From: Liquorilactobacillus hordei DSM 19519
GTDB lineage: Bacteria > Bacillota > Bacilli > Lactobacillales > Lactobacillaceae
DNA length: 64,000 nt
Direction of reading: 5' to 3'
NCBI RefSeq assembly: GCF_019443985.1
Contig: NZ_CP049303.1
Location: 744,001-808,000, forward strand
Shown here: one piece after another, positions 16,944-49,330 of the stretch
Layout: every line of letters begins with the position of its first letter
Numbering within the stretch: position 1 is the stretch's first letter
The notes under the pieces: model-generated
What the model saw: the letters and a program-made list of their open reading frames with translations, nothing else
Told to the model about the DNA's origin: nothing
Database searches by the model: none
Made by a program: the position numbers and the translations under genes

Positions 16944-17165
16944 ATTAAAAAGCGATGAGATAGATAGTAGGAAGATAATCACTGTTTAAGAGACTTGATG
17001 GTATTGTGAATCAAGACAAATTATTCTTCCGAATTACACTATTGAGCTTAGCATAGACTCACCTCTTTAGCGGTGTAAGAGCTGGTCACATGTGTGACAA
17101 CTTGGGTGGTAACGCGGAATTTATTTTCGTCCCTAATACTATTAATAGTATTGGGGACTTTTTTA
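16944..17165 (+). promoter_or_regulatory. T-box riboswitch leader, Tyr specifier
   Basis: The leader has a stem I in which GGAAGATAAT pairs with ATTATTCTTCC, closed below by ATAGT/ACTAT. The specifier loop GAATTAC between them ends in TAC (17035-17037), a Tyr codon. The T-box GGGTGGTAACGCGG (17104-17117) is followed by a terminator hairpin CCCTAATACT...AGTATTGGGG plus T run. Uncharged tRNA-Tyr would bind both and prevent termination ahead of tyrS. Confidence 0.93.
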
Positions 17166-44255: not shown

Positions 44256-45491
44256 TTACTTAACCTCACTAGGAATTGATGGTGACTTAGTTTCTTCATT
44301 TTTTTGTTGAACTTGTGCGAACACTTGAGATGGTAGTCCCCATAATTTAATAAAACCAGCTGCAGCCTCTTGATCAAATTCATCAGCAGAAGTGTAAGTT
44401 GCAAGATTTTTATCGTAAAGAGAGTTTGGCGATTTACGTCCCATACAGATGACATTTCCTTTGAATAATTTAACCCGAACTGTTCCCGAAACATTTTTTT
44501 GTGATTCTTTCAAGAAAGAAGTTAGCGCAGGCATAATTGGTGAGAACCATAATCCATTATAGATAATTTCACTTAACTTTTGTTCAATAACTGGTTTGAA
44601 ATGTGCAAGATCACGTTCTGAAGTCAAATCTTCTAAATCTTTGTGAGCTTTTAATAAAACCGTCGCAGCTGGGCATTCATAAACTTCACGAGATTTAATC
44701 CCCACAAGACGATTTTCTATATGGTCAATTCTTCCAATCCCATGTGCTCCAGCAAGCTTATCAAGATGCATGATTAATTCTGAGAGTGAATAGAATTTAC
44801 CATCTAATTCAGTAGGAACACCATTTTCAAATGTAATCTCAATTGTGGTTGCAGCGTCTGGAGCATCTTCTATGGCAACAGTCCGATCGTAAGCATCTTC
44901 TGGTGCACTAGCCCAAGAATCTTCTAAAATCCCACATTCATTTGCTCTTCCCCATAAGTTTTCATCAATGGAGTAGGGACTTTTTTTATTAATTGGGACA
45001 GGAATATTATTTTCCTCAGCATACTGAATTTCTTCTTCACGAGACCAATGCCAATCTCTAATTGGATCTTCGATTTTCATTTCTGGTGCAAGCGCGTGAA
45101 TTCCGACTTCAAAACGTACTTGATCATTGCCTTTTCCTGTACAACCATGAGCAATTGCAGTAGCGCCATATTCCTTAGCGACAGATACTAATTTTTTGAC
45201 AATCAATGGACGAGAAAGAGCAGAAATTAATGGATACTTATTCTCATAATAAGTGTGACCCTGGAGGGCAATTAATGCATATTCTTGGGCAAATTCTTCT
45301 TTTGCATCAATTGTAATCGATTCAATTGCACCAACTTCAAATCCCTTTTGCTTAATTTTAACCAAATCTTTTCCTTCGCCAACATCAATACAGCAAGCGA
45401 TGACATCATAACCTTTGTTTTTTAACCATGCAATTGCAACGGAAGTATCAAGACCACCTGAGTATGCTAAAACAACTTTTTCTTTATCCAT
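44256..45491 (-). CDS. argG: Argininosuccinate synthase
   Basis: 411 residues from ATG 45491, set by AGGAGG about 8 nt upstream; the frame extends further without support. The N-terminal PP-loop [15 protein letters not shown] binds ATP, and [14 protein letters not shown] near 115 and [12 protein letters not shown] near 175 are family motifs. It joins citrulline and aspartate. argH follows directly. The promoter region carries two ARG-box-like sites and is shared with the divergent araT leader. Confidence 0.97.
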
Positions 45492-45595
45492 TTTATAAGC
45501 CTCCTGAATGTTGATTATCTTTGATTGATTAAACTTTAGCACCAATATACTTAAAATGCAATAATATTTACTAAAAAACATGAAATAAAGCGTTT

Positions 45596-45636
45596 TATGA
45601 ATATATATGCTTTAAAAACGAATATATTCATAAAAT
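45596..45636 (-). promoter_or_regulatory. Candidate ArgR operator, two ARG-box-like sites
   Basis: ATGAATATATATGC (45597-45610) and CGAATATATTCATAA (45619-45633) are close to the ARG-box core TGAAT-N4-ATTCA. They are about 22 bp apart and about 110 bp before argG, so arginine repression of argGH is plausible. Confidence 0.55.
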
Positions 45637-45713
45637 CAGTTGAGCATATTAATTTGAAAACTAAAATTCGAAAATAAAAATTAAAATAATATTTGAAAAT
45701 AATGTAAAAATGG

Positions 45714-45742
45714 TTGACAGTTATTGATTAGTAAGCTATATT
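45714..45742 (+). promoter_or_regulatory. Promoter of the araT leader
   Basis: TTGACA (45714-45719) and TATATT (45737-45742) with 17-bp spacing; transcription should start near 45749, some 345 nt before araT. Confidence 0.85.
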
Positions 45743-45773
45743 TTACTTATTCAATTTTAAGGAGATTATAATT

Positions 45774-45845
45774 ATGTCGAATTCTAACAAATCCATACAA
45801 TTGAATAGTTACTATTACTTTTATTTTTTTCACGAGTGTTTGTAA
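45774..45845 (+). CDS. Aromatic leader peptide of the araT operon
   Basis: A 23-codon frame with ATG 45774 placed 8 nt after AAGGAGA (45759-45765) and stop TAA at 45843-45845. The peptide ends SYYYFYFFHECL: four Tyr and three Phe codons in seven consecutive positions, against a chance expectation far lower. It is just downstream of a consensus promoter and upstream of competing RNA stems and a terminator, and the next real gene is an aromatic aminotransferase. I read it as an attenuator leader peptide whose translation rate reports charged tRNA-Tyr and tRNA-Phe. Confidence 0.75.
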   Translation: MSNSNKSIQLNSYYYFYFFHECL

Positions 45846-45858
45846 CTGATTGATAAAT

Positions 45859-46042
45859 CAGGTGCAGACACGTAGGTAGAGTGTCATGCACCTGTGAGGA
45901 AGATGAGAGTTATTTTGCTAGTAGTTTTAGCGAAGCCACACAGATGTCAATTAAAGAGTCTGTCTGGCCTGAAGTAAGAAAAAGATAATGCTGATGTATG
46001 AATCAAGCCTGCAGACTTATGAATTTAGGTCTGCAGGCTTTT
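45859..46042 (+). promoter_or_regulatory. Attenuator stems and terminator before araT
   Basis: Segment 1 CAGGTGCAGACAC (45859-45871) pairs with segment 2 GTGTCATGCACCTG (45881-45894). A small stem follows at about 45914-45937. Segment 3 GTCTGTCTGGCCTG (45958-45971) can pair partly with segment 1 or with segment 4 AAGCCTGCAGAC (46005-46016). Segment 4 pairs perfectly with segment 5 GTCTGCAGGCTT (46029-46040), followed by TT: an intrinsic terminator. Segments 1 and 4 share TGCAGAC. This is the layout of a transcription attenuator; which pairing gives readthrough is not settled by sequence. Confidence 0.7.
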
Positions 46043-46092
46043 AACGTTGTTTACAAATATATTGAAGATTGTCAAGGAAGGGATGTTTTAAC

Positions 46093-47271
46093 ATGGTATC
46101 ACTTGTAAAAAATATGAAAAAAGAACTTGCATTATTGCAACCATCAGATATACGTTCATTTGACGAATTTGCCTCGAAAATTCCGGGGATAATCAAATTT
46201 ACAATGGGGGAACCTGATTTTGCTACACCTGAACATATTAAGCAGGCGGCAATTAAAAGTATCGAAGCTAATCAAAGTCACTATGCGCCGTCTAACGGAA
46301 TACCAGAACTATTAGAAGCTACATCAAAATTTCTTTCTTCGAAGTATGATCAACATTATGACCCTACAAGCGAAATTATTGTGACAAATGGCGCGACAGA
46401 AGCAATTTATACTGCACTTACATCTATTCTTAATCCTGGTGATAAGGTGATTATCCCGACACCAATTTTTCCACTATACATTGCAATTACAATCTTGAAT
46501 CAAGCAACGCCAGTTTTTGTAAATACGTCAAAGACCGGTTTCAAATTAACACCCAAAGATTTAGAGGAAACTCTCAAGAAACAGGGAGACAAGGTTAAAG
46601 CTGTTGTATTAAATTATCCATCTAATCCAACTGGTGTTACATATACACAAGAGGAATTAGATGGATTAGCCGAGGTATTAAGAAATAAACCAATTTTTGC
46701 AATTTGTGATGAGATTTATAGTGAAATCAACTATAAAGGAAGTCATGCATCAATGGTGCATAGTTTGCGTGAACAAACGATTCTTTTAAATGGTGTCTCT
46801 AAGTCTCATGCAATGACCGGATGGAGAATAGGTGTTATGTGTGCGCCAAAAGAAATTACTGCTGAACTAGGTAAAGTACATCAGTTTACAATTACTACAA
46901 CATCAACAATGACACAAAAAGCAGCGGCTGAGGCGTTTGCAAATGGTTTTGATGATGGCCCACTAATGAAAAAAGAGTATAAAAAACGTAGAGACTATCT
47001 TTTTGATAAGTTAACAACACTTGGATTTGAGTGTGCGCAACCTGATGGTGCCTTTTACCTCTTTGCTAAAATTCCAGATGGTCTAATTCAGGATGACAAG
47101 AAATTCATTTATGATTTAGCTGAAAAGGGAAAAGTAGCTGTTATCAGCGGGAGCAGCTTTGGACCTGGAGGTGAAGGTTATATTAGAATCAGTTATGCTG
47201 CAAGCATGGAAGACATTATAGAAGCAATGGAACGCTTGGCAGTGTATGTCAAGGAAAATAAGGAGGACTAA
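46093..47271 (+). CDS. araT: Aromatic aminotransferase, AraT-like
   Basis: 392 residues, fold-type I PLP aminotransferase. The Schiff-base Lys237 lies in NGVSKSHAMTGWRIG; NYPSNPTGVTY, the Asp/Tyr pair in CDEIYSEI and the substrate Arg in YIRISYAAS are present. From memory the sequence follows Lactococcus AraT closely, including the segments around GEPDFATPEH and MKKEYKKRRDYLFDKL. AraT converts Phe, Tyr and Trp to 2-keto acids (and also acts on Leu/Met). ATG 46093 follows GGAAGGGA. It lies 50 bp after a terminator whose leader encodes a Tyr/Phe-rich peptide, and the dehydrogenase gene follows at once. Confidence 0.85.
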   Translation: MVSLVKNMKKELALLQPSDIRSFDEFASKIPGIIKFTMGEPDFATPEHIKQAAIKSIEANQSHYAPSNGIPELLEATSKFLSSKYDQHYDPTSEIIVTNGATEAIYTALTSILNPGDKVIIPTPIFPLYIAITILNQATPVFVNTSKTGFKLTPKDLEETLKKQGDKVKAVVLNYPSNPTGVTYTQEELDGLAEVLRNKPIFAICDEIYSEINYKGSHASMVHSLREQTILLNGVSKSHAMTGWRIGVMCAPKEITAELGKVHQFTITTTSTMTQKAAAEAFANGFDDGPLMKKEYKKRRDYLFDKLTTLGFECAQPDGAFYLFAKIPDGLIQDDKKFIYDLAEKGKVAVISGSSFGPGGEGYIRISYAASMEDIIEAMERLAVYVKENKED

Positions 47272-47273
47272 GT

Positions 47274-48260
47274 TTGAAAATTTTGATGATGAGTGTTAGA
47301 GACGATGAAGAAGCCGCTATTAAAAGTTGGTCAGAAAGAAACAATATTAAAGTTGATACCGTTGATTGGGAACTTCATCCAGACCGTGTCTCTGAACTAG
47401 GTGGTTATGATGGAATTGTTATTCAGCAACGAAGTAAAGTCGAGGGTGAAGTTTATCCAGCACTAAAAGCAGCTGGAATAAAACAAATTACGACAAGAAC
47501 GGCTGGCTTTGATGTAATTGATCTTGAAGCCGCTAGGGAAAATGGTCTTACTGTTACCAATGTACCAGCCTATTCTCCACGGTCAGTAGCAGAATTAGCA
47601 CTTGCGCATACGATGAGATTGATTCGTAAATTGGAAATTTTTGATGAAAGAGCCGCAAAACAAGATTTTAGATGGGCAGGATTACAGGCAGCTGAAATTC
47701 ATTCACTTACAGTGGGAATTATAGGAGCAGGTAGAATTGGTGGAACGACAGCCAAAATATTTGATGCTTTGGGAGCAAAAGTAGTTGCGCATGATTTGGT
47801 TGAACGAGAAGAACTTAAGTCTTTCGTTACTTATATGAGTAAAGAAGAAGTTTTGCAAAAAGCAGATGTAATTTGTTTGCACGTTGATTTGAATCCTTCA
47901 ACAATCAATTTAATAGGTAGAGATGAACTGGCGTTAATGAAACCAACAGCATATCTGGTAAATGAATGTCGCGGCCCCGTCGTGGACACAGATGCGTTAA
48001 TAGAAGCACTCGAACAAAAGAAAATAGCTGGAGTGGCACTTGACACATTGACAGGTGAGGAGAAATTCTTTAATTTCAATCTGCAAAATAAGGAGTTGCC
48101 AAGTCAGCAGCTTGTTAGATTACGTGCAATGGAAAATGTAATTTTGACTCCGCATGTCGGCTTCTTTACAAATATTGCAGTCCAAAATATGGTAGATATT
48201 AGTCTAGACGATGTAGTAGCAATTCTTAATGGTGAGAAAAGTGAACACCAAGTATCTTAA
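47274..48260 (+). CDS. D-2-hydroxyacid dehydrogenase
   Basis: 328 residues of the D-LDH/D-HicDH group. The NAD-binding loop GAGRIG is at 151-156, and the catalytic triad is Arg233 (NECRGPV), Glu262 (TGEEKFF) and His294 (TPHVGFF). It should reduce 2-keto acids to D-2-hydroxyacids with NADH. Placed 2 bp after araT with AGGAGG before TTG 47274, its likely substrates are phenylpyruvate and 4-hydroxyphenylpyruvate, giving phenyllactate-type products; a plain D-lactate dehydrogenase is the alternative. The pairing of an aminotransferase with a reductase is what suggests the aromatic substrate. Confidence 0.88.
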   Translation: MKILMMSVRDDEEAAIKSWSERNNIKVDTVDWELHPDRVSELGGYDGIVIQQRSKVEGEVYPALKAAGIKQITTRTAGFDVIDLEAARENGLTVTNVPAYSPRSVAELALAHTMRLIRKLEIFDERAAKQDFRWAGLQAAEIHSLTVGIIGAGRIGGTTAKIFDALGAKVVAHDLVEREELKSFVTYMSKEEVLQKADVICLHVDLNPSTINLIGRDELALMKPTAYLVNECRGPVVDTDALIEALEQKKIAGVALDTLTGEEKFFNFNLQNKELPSQQLVRLRAMENVILTPHVGFFTNIAVQNMVDISLDDVVAILNGEKSEHQVS

Positions 48261-48283: not shown

Positions 48284-49330
48284 ATGGAAGTGAAAATTTC
48301 TGGTAAAGAGTACACAATGAATATCTTAAATGGAATTAGTCTAGGGGTTGTCGTAGCCCTGATTCCATCTGCTTTAGTGGGACAATTAATGGCGGCTATT
48401 AAGGGATTTTTTCCATATGCAACTACCATTATTATGATGACAAGTTTTGCAATGAGTTTACTTCCAATTATTACAGGAGTATGTGTTTCACTGTATTTTA
48501 AACTCAACCCTATTCAGATTTCTGCGGTAGCAATTGCAGCGATGGTAGGTTCTGGCGCAATGCAGCCAGGTAAAGGAACATTCATTTTGGCGGGGACAGG
48601 AGATATTATTAACACGGGACTGACGATTGCACTTGCTGTTTGGATAGCGCTATTGATTGGTGATCGATTGAAAAATTTTACAATGCTATTATTACCATTG
48701 TTAGTGATTGTTATTGCTGGGGGAATTGGAATGTTTATTCTACCTTATGTAAAAATGATTGCAACGACAATTGGCTTAATTATTAGTAATATAACAAGTC
48801 TGCAACCGCTCCTTATGGGAACGTTAATGGGAATCTGTTTTGCAGTCTTAATTGTTTCACCAATTAGTTCTGTAGGAATTGCAACTGCAATCGGATTAGC
48901 AGGAATCGGTTCAGGATCAGCTAATTTAGGAATTACAGCTGGCAGCTTTATGCTGGCTGTTTATGGCAGTTCTGTGAATCCAATTGGTACAAGTTTTGCA
49001 CATTTTATTGGCTCACCCAAAATTCAGATGGGAAATATGTTGAAAAAACCATTACTATTTTTACCGGTCTGTATTAATGCAGGGATTATGGGGCTCATTG
49101 GGGCAATTTTGCACATCGGAGGAAATTCGATGAGTGCAGGATTTGGATTCAGTGGCTTAATTGGACCAATGGCAGCATATGCGGGAATGGATAAAGGTAT
49201 AATGAGTGTGATCATCTTAGTTATAATTTTTGTAATTCTACCAGTTTTACTAGCCTATGTTTCACGTCATATTTTTATTAATAAATTAGGATGGATTAAA
49301 CCGGAAGATGTGTTGTTAGACATTAAGTAA
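48284..49330 (+). CDS. Orphan EIIC-like membrane transporter
   Basis: 348 residues and about ten membrane helices, rich in Gly/Ala/Ile, matching the PTS EIIC type 2 family (PF13303-like) that occurs without EIIA or EIIB partners. The helices carry GAMQPGKGTFILAGTGD near 95 and SSVNPIGTSFAHFIGSPK near 230, typical of this group. No PTS components are nearby and no His/Cys phosphorylation domain is present, so sugar phosphorylation is unlikely. Being third in the araT operon, it may move an aromatic amino acid, keto acid or hydroxy acid. ATG 48284 follows AGAAGGTGAG; a terminator-like repeat follows. Confidence 0.8.
   Translation: MEVKISGKEYTMNILNGISLGVVVALIPSALVGQLMAAIKGFFPYATTIIMMTSFAMSLLPIITGVCVSLYFKLNPIQISAVAIAAMVGSGAMQPGKGTFILAGTGDIINTGLTIALAVWIALLIGDRLKNFTMLLLPLLVIVIAGGIGMFILPYVKMIATTIGLIISNITSLQPLLMGTLMGICFAVLIVSPISSVGIATAIGLAGIGSGSANLGITAGSFMLAVYGSSVNPIGTSFAHFIGSPKIQMGNMLKKPLLFLPVCINAGIMGLIGAILHIGGNSMSAGFGFSGLIGPMAAYAGMDKGIMSVIILVIIFVILPVLLAYVSRHIFINKLGWIKPEDVLLDIK

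Follow-up and report, generated by a model that had tools for sequence, protein, structure and literature searches.

The locus considered here raises the question of how an operon headed by an araT-like aminotransferase gene is controlled when a short open reading frame rich in tyrosine and phenylalanine codons, followed by strong RNA structure, stands between its promoter and its first gene. Ribosome-mediated attenuation is usually seen as an enterobacterial strategy, exemplified by the pheL, pheST and trpL leaders, in which a run of aromatic codons is followed by an attenuator; T-boxes are its counterpart in the Firmicutes and the usual control of genes of this sort. A preliminary description of the window (the whole stretch of 64,000 nucleotides that was analysed) had placed leader-peptide attenuation in front of araT and left the direction of the response undecided. 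Attenuation at this position is now strongly supported, both by the conservation of the frame in relatives and by compensatory changes in the helices, and the sequence of the leader suggests, with a probability of roughly 0.85, a ribosome-mediated transcription attenuator that would sense charged tRNA-Tyr and tRNA-Phe and turn the operon on in starvation.

An aromatic leader frame ahead of an araT-like operon

By its araT relatives, the genome that contains the window belongs to genus g1 (14 genomes), which is Liquorilactobacillus, and to family f1, the Lactobacillaceae; the closest named relatives of araT are those of Lactobacillus sp. UCMA15818 and Liquorilactobacillus mali, followed by those of other Liquorilactobacillus. 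The promoter, the leader frame and the genes behind it are arranged as follows.

45714..45742, + strand: sigma-70-type promoter, TTGACA-17-TATATT, with 11 of 12 consensus matches
45759..45764, + strand: Shine-Dalgarno site AAGGAG of the leader peptide, AAGG.G being invariant in the 14-sequence alignment
45774..45845, + strand: leader peptide MSNSNKSIQLNSYYYFYFFHECL, 23 codons, stop codon TAA at 45843-45845; a leader of the same type is found in 95 of 120 araT upstream regions
45810..45830, + strand: control codons TAC TAT TAC TTT TAT TTT TTT (YYYFYFF), read from the sequence
46093..47271, + strand: araT-like aminotransferase (class I/II; Pfam Aminotran_1_2), the first gene behind the leader
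47274..48260, + strand: D-isomer specific 2-hydroxyacid dehydrogenase, the second gene
48284..49330, + strand: PF13303 (PTS_EIIC_2) membrane protein, the third gene

The consensus promoter and the 23-codon frame with its ribosome site and YYYFYFF run, both claimed in the preliminary description, are present at these positions. The promoter is the best of eight hits within 45000-48000; because this number of hits is not above that in shuffled sequences (mean 10.9), the call is based on the quality of the match and on the -35 box, which is invariant in 14 of 14 genus members. A short frame with a ribosome site between promoter and first gene is characteristic of attenuators, and the 297-nt leader folds at -97.1 kcal/mol (z -7.5), a stability equalled by none of 200 shuffles. 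An Rfam search at the gathering score returned neither a known leader family nor a T-box at 45714-46092. The aromatic aminotransferase said to lie downstream is there as an Aminotran_1_2 gene, its aromatic substrate being assigned by similarity only; its top NCBIfam match is PRK07309, at 551.5 bits (below the cut-off of 576), and the label araT is likewise based on similarity rather than curated.

Conservation of the leader frame

Upstream regions of AraT relatives from the Lactobacillaceae (n = 120; 40 from loci and 80 fetched) were filtered for frames of 10-30 codons, at least 150 nt upstream, with a Shine-Dalgarno-like site and at least four aromatic residues in seven. This filter was passed by 95 of the 120 real regions and by 20 of 600 shuffled ones, so that the small frame is kept in relatives, which the preliminary description had named as a supporting sign; a looser filter accepts 106 of the 120, chance frames included. 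All 95 real frames carry a loose core, Y-F-x-F/Y-F, close to the stop codon, as compared with 3 of the 20 shuffled frames that pass the filter, and examples of core-bearing peptides are MHTQNRPEQQLNTFYYFWFFHKCL, MSLPLNSLKSRTSFYFWYFR, MQLPIITQLNSRYYFWFFQS and MSHLMNKTTANFYFKYFG. The leader is present in 14 of 14 genus members. Outside the Lactobacillaceae, in a sample of 20 araT upstream regions from six families of the same order (f2, f3, f4, f7, f8 and f9), two (L195 and L199) pass the filter, both without the core. Among the 25 leaderless regions are second araT copies (L099, L100 and L115), a region at a contig end (L106), L061-L066, and L078, whose peptide MKLRRASQLNSWNYNFRFY fits the leader type but failed the ribosome-site filter.

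Removal of the near-duplicates L036, L077, L091, L094 and L105 left 90 leaders, to which all counts out of 90 below refer; each holds from three to seven Tyr/Phe codons, the kind of amino acid run that attenuators possess. A pattern scan of 397 genomes gave hits in 69 of them and in 10 of 40 genera; it sees the AGGAG plus TGG form only and includes chance hits inside genes (L206 and L207). The window's genome also carries a second aminotransferase gene (G000:C3:1180303-1181448, L205), 52-53% identical to araT, with no frame passing the leader filter in its upstream region.

Pairing of the control codons with a downstream segment

The central pairing of the leader, which is absent from the preliminary description, joins the control codons to a segment further downstream: ACTTTTATTTTTTTCAC (45817-45833, segment A) and GTGAGGAAGATGAGAGT (45894-45910, segment E) form 17 base pairs in an unbroken row. 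It forms part of a chain of helices that involves the segments below.

45817..45833, + strand: segment A, control codons, pairing with E over 17 bp (folding, covariation)
45836..45844, + strand: segment B, last codons and stop, pairing with C (pairing analysis)
45860..45871, + strand: segment C, pairing with B (45863-45871) or D (45860-45866) (alignment A1)
45887..45899, + strand: segment D, pairing with C (45887-45893) or G (45888-45890, 45892-45896 and 45898-45899) (alignment A1)
45894..45910, + strand: segment E, complement of the control codons, overlapping the 3' part of D (folding, covariation)
45936..45947, + strand: segment G, pairing with D or H (alignment A1)
45957..45968, + strand: segment H, pairing with G (terminator state) or I (antiterminator) (alignment A1, H:I complementarity)
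46005..46017, + strand: segment I, pairing with J as the 5' terminator arm or with H as antiterminator (alignment A1, hairpin scan)
46028..46042, + strand: segment J, 3' terminator arm together with the T tract (alignment A1, hairpin scan)

The middle codon of A:E varies, being TGG, TAT, CGT, CGG, CGC, AAG or TTG (Trp, Tyr, Arg, Lys or Leu). In the covariation test the E partner was picked from eight flanking positions only, and 86 of the 90 leaders reach at least seven flank pairs. All three bases of the middle codon pair in 70 of these 86 leaders, as against 191 of 3630 (5.3%) non-cognate combinations, in which middle codons are joined to the partners of leaders with a different codon and shared ancestry stays in. 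Compensation at the middle codon recurs for several codon types: full pairing is seen in 47 of 60 leaders with TGG, 9 of 9 with TAT, 7 of 7 with CGT, 5 of 5 with AAG, 1 of 3 with CGG and the single leader with TTG, and is missing from the one with CGC. The drifting core residue thus appears to be held through RNA pairing rather than peptide function, and it would be for this reason that it is able to drift. In the manner of an attenuator, the control codons lie in the first helix of a mutually exclusive chain, and this helix covaries. The energy of A:E alone beats 95% of shuffles in just 44 of 90 leaders, and E is ambiguous in leaders that are Lacticaseibacillus-like (a guessed name for genus g38), for which a site 101-103 nt downstream was sometimes picked instead of the one at about 54. 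Tryptophan was rejected as the sensed amino acid, since the Trp codon is missing from 19 of the 90 leaders and is replaced in step with its RNA partner.

Terminator and relay helices

Downstream of the frame, the strong hairpin that had been claimed at 45859-45894 is found at 45860-45893, the third segment claimed at 45958-45971 is found at 45957-45968, and the terminator at 46005-46040 was recovered at -24.5 kcal/mol in a dedicated hairpin scan; a simple terminator scan returned none because the T tract is short (TTTT). An intrinsic terminator ahead of the first gene is a further element that attenuators share. Terminator-like hairpins of at least -8 kcal/mol in strength occur in 90 of 90 leaders, a level that 210 of 360 shuffles also reach; the meaningful comparison is with the hairpin strength of the real leaders, which is matched by 2 of 360 shuffles. 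For L026, L041, L047 and L070 the hairpin chosen by the scan is plainly not the gene-adjacent one. Of 89 leaders, 61 have an upstream segment that is complementary to the 5' arm of the terminator (H:I) at p<=0.05. The word TGCAGAC, which the preliminary description had noted in its first and fourth segments as a basis for alternative pairing, does occur at 45863 and 46010, but only the window and three relatives have it in the first segment, where the remaining 10 of the 14 genus members read TGCAAAC. As a pairing that is not conserved it was rejected, and the shared word is not the switch.

Pairs were counted in two alignments, A1 (the 14 genus members) and A2 (18 of the 90 leaders, from two groups chosen as alignable, with L088 omitted because of a long insertion), each of the structures being read off one sequence and consequently favoured in the slide control. 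In A1 the terminator state (A:E, C:D, G:H, I:J and a 5' helix) has 96.9% of cells paired and 21 double-sided changes, neither of which is reached by any of 500 shuffles; double-sided change occurs in six pairs, which 30 of 500 shuffles reach, and slid versions are 30-53% paired. For this state in A2, 98.3% of cells are paired and 26 are double-sided, neither value being attained by any of 500 shuffles; the double-sided changes fall in five pairs (160 of 500 shuffles), all in G:H and I:J; A:E in these 18 short-class leaders shows no double-sided change and eight one-sided changes. The antiterminator state (B:C, D:G and H:I) is 96.6% paired in A1 (0 of 500 shuffles; slid versions 26-50%, with a maximum of 50.3%) and has three double-sided cells, a number reached by 3 of 500 shuffles. 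In A2 it is 99.3% paired with one double-sided cell, and both values are reached by 95 of 500 shuffles because the columns hardly vary, slid versions being at most 49.0% paired. The helices of the terminator state covary, with compensatory changes in A:E, G:H and I:J that bear out the covarying stems looked for in the preliminary description; those of the antiterminator state are well paired, but too invariant for proof by covariation. The outer pairs of G:H (helix 4 of A1) are poor in the window's genus, with 71% of cells paired.

Pairing of the presumed transcript 5' end with the Gln-Leu-Asn codons was rejected as a feature of the family, since this helix is shuffle-like in the 90 leaders (median z -0.3; p<=0.05 in 4 of 90). 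In the window the two segments (45749-45756 and 45799-45806) are perfectly complementary, and they are invariant in 14 of 14 genus members.

Long and short leaders

The leaders were split by the presence of TGTTTG near the stop codon into 45 long and 45 short ones, a rough division in which L060 and L074 are counted as short but look long. In short leaders it is segment D that shares bases with the stop codon (UGAUCUGUG), and its partner is G (CACAGAUCA); the D/G pair of L141 is UGACCUG with CAGGUCA. In the long class, which includes the window, B (GUGUUUGUA, 45836-45844) serves as the stop-codon segment. Its partner C can pair with D instead, and this class has two more helices than the short one (B:C and C:D). 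A downstream partner of the stop-codon segment was found at p<=0.05 in 47 of 90 leaders (20 of 45 long and 27 of 45 short); the partner is no better than in shuffles in L110, L114, L118, L129, L138 and L126, and, within the window's own genus, in L024, L027 and L029.

Genes behind the leader

A hydroxyacid dehydrogenase gene stands behind araT in 33 of 34 leader-bearing loci with downstream sequence (L019-L048 and L057-L060, the near-duplicates L035 and L036 included; the exception is L033) and in 0 of 6 leaderless Lactobacillaceae loci (L061-L066). Of the 14 genus members, 12 have the PF13303 gene behind araT and the dehydrogenase gene. Three genomes of genus g19 (L201-L203) have a leader of the same type immediately in front of a PF13303 homologue, as in the following case.

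L201, 561..1622: PF13303 homologue behind the leader, 42% identical to the window's protein

The araT leader also occurs in genus g19, in both of the two genomes examined out of the three (G282 and G255; L074 and L083). The position of these leaders immediately in front of its homologues ties the PF13303 membrane protein to aromatic amino acid supply; the shared leader points to an aromatic role, and the protein is perhaps a transporter for aromatic amino acids or for their keto or hydroxy acids. An extra base in L201 (from 324) and L202 shifts the reading frame, giving YFTFGFF in place of YYFWFF; the pairing RNA and the Phe/Tyr codons are kept and Trp is lost.

Prephenate dehydratase (PF00800) was found in 0 of 14 genus genomes and in 14 of 14 control genomes; chorismate synthase and a PDH_C match are both present in the window's own genome. 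This gene content makes phenylalanine auxotrophy of Liquorilactobacillus (genus g1) likely, and because PF00800 is absent from all 14 genomes, araT is unlikely to act in Phe synthesis from prephenate.

Discussion

We propose that the leader acts as a relay that is set by the position of the translating ribosome. When the Tyr/Phe codons are passed, the ribosome at the stop codon would mask B (or, following its release, A would pair with E); with B masked, C:D and G:H would form, followed by the terminator I:J, and the operon would be off. Conversely, a ribosome stalled on the Tyr/Phe codons would cover A and leave B free, allowing B:C to form, D to be released to G and H to be released to I, with the result that the terminator would be blocked and the genes for araT, the hydroxyacid dehydrogenase and the PF13303 protein would be transcribed. 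Of this scheme, the sequences show the conserved leader peptide, the helices that can form, their mutual exclusion through overlap and the covariation of A:E, G:H and I:J; translation of the frame, stalling, its timing, the action of the antiterminator helices as switches, and the polarity are inferred. The argument for polarity uses general values of ribosome footprint length. The prediction is alike for both classes: once a ribosome has read through every codon and masks the stop-codon segment, G:H and then the terminator would form, and with a ribosome halted at the Tyr/Phe codons this segment would stay free, giving H:I. The polarity would be kept between the classes because B:C/C:D adds an even number of switches. 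Based on this anatomy, the direction that the preliminary description left undecided can be argued to be readthrough in Tyr/Phe starvation.

The opposite direction would be expected if the nascent peptide arrested the ribosome when aromatic amino acids are abundant, as in tnaC, so that a catabolic operon would be on in excess. An aminotransferase and a 2-hydroxyacid dehydrogenase make up the route from Phe/Tyr to aryl-lactates, and the resemblance of the present genes to this route favours such an arrest, as does the well conserved end of the peptide (YYFWFF and similar); a catabolic-looking gene pair is also unexpected under a switch that is on in starvation. However, a tnaC-type leader should conserve peptide residues apart from RNA pairing, and here one core residue drifts among W, Y, R, K and L along with its RNA partner, while the surrounding aromatic residues are kept. 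In addition, L201 and L202 keep the RNA and read it in another frame, and the anatomy suggests that a ribosome held near the stop codon should cause termination in both classes. We consider a tnaC-like arrest improbable on these grounds. If the small frame were incidental and the leader a riboswitch or a target of a binding protein, this would account for a strong structure that forms without translation; it is a very unlikely explanation, because the frame, the ribosome site and the Tyr/Phe codons are kept despite very different leader lengths and sequences, and because the leader has no Rfam match at the gathering score. The chance that the leader is a degenerate T-box appears negligible: one T-box at the Rfam cut-off is present elsewhere in the window (16946-17137), and 9 of 95 leaders contain a loose T-box-like word, but the other 86, the window's leader among them, lack it, and 45714-46092 yields no Rfam T-box match. 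The preliminary description mentions two T-boxes in the window, those of tyrS and trpS; a single one, at 16946-17137, reaches the Rfam cut-off.

The charged-tRNA attenuator that we favour resembles, in general outline, the pheL, pheST and trpL leaders in having an aromatic codon run before the attenuator; unlike them, the window's leader belongs to no Rfam leader family at the gathering score. Its topology and logic are the same as those of the Salmonella his attenuator (hisL), which, as outlined in PMC4046918, forms A:B in its untranslated default and, upon stalling, B:C and D:E with readthrough, the terminator being E:F. In both systems the control-codon segment pairs downstream and alternative helices compete with the terminator, segments A, D/E, G, H, I and J of the window corresponding to A, B, C, D, E and F of his in that outline (PMC4046918). 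The present leader differs from the his attenuator so described in its Tyr/Phe rather than His codons, in its phylum and genes, and, in the long class, in an added alternative helix pair (B:C versus C:D in the lettering of the window) (PMC4046918). The published candidate motif uORFC-13-1, summarized in PMC8632094 as a predicted frame that has one or more Phe codons and precedes a terminator upstream of aroF in Acholeplasma, is likewise a Phe-codon frame before an aromatic-pathway gene outside the Proteobacteria; compared by description, our leader precedes an araT-like gene in another taxon and has a Tyr/Phe run instead of at least one Phe codon. Leader-peptide attenuators with different amino acids and genes are also on record for the Firmicutes, namely the His leader peptides proposed for hisS*/hisZ in Bacilli (PMC2965389) and the Leu/Ile attenuator peptide of Staphylococcus aureus ilv-leu, for which mutants are included (PMC5794164). 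The available portion of a T-box survey (PMC2494555) does not contain araT. A literature search of titles, abstracts and part of the texts in open-licence PMC found no araT leader peptide; ribosome-mediated attenuators are a known kind, and the present family, set beside uORFC-13-1 by description only, is apparently undescribed.

Our studies suggest that lactic acid bacteria make wide use of ribosome-mediated attenuation for aromatic amino acids. The araT and hydroxyacid dehydrogenase genes, which are thought to produce phenyllactic acid, gain a concrete and testable candidate regulator. As a conjecture, an operon that is on in starvation may salvage aryl-pyruvates or aryl-lactates; a literature search on such salvage gave nothing usable. 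A wider picture, which we put forward as tentative and rather doubtful as a whole, is that of a Lactobacillaceae attenuator family built in two lengths that are interchangeable, one a short relay like that of his and the other a long relay with two more helices and the same polarity. In starvation it would drive an operon that salvages aryl-pyruvates and aryl-lactates to yield Phe and Tyr, in a genus without prephenate dehydratase, and the PF13303 proteins would act as the importers. The two relay lengths provide a natural experiment on the number of switches that one attenuator can hold.
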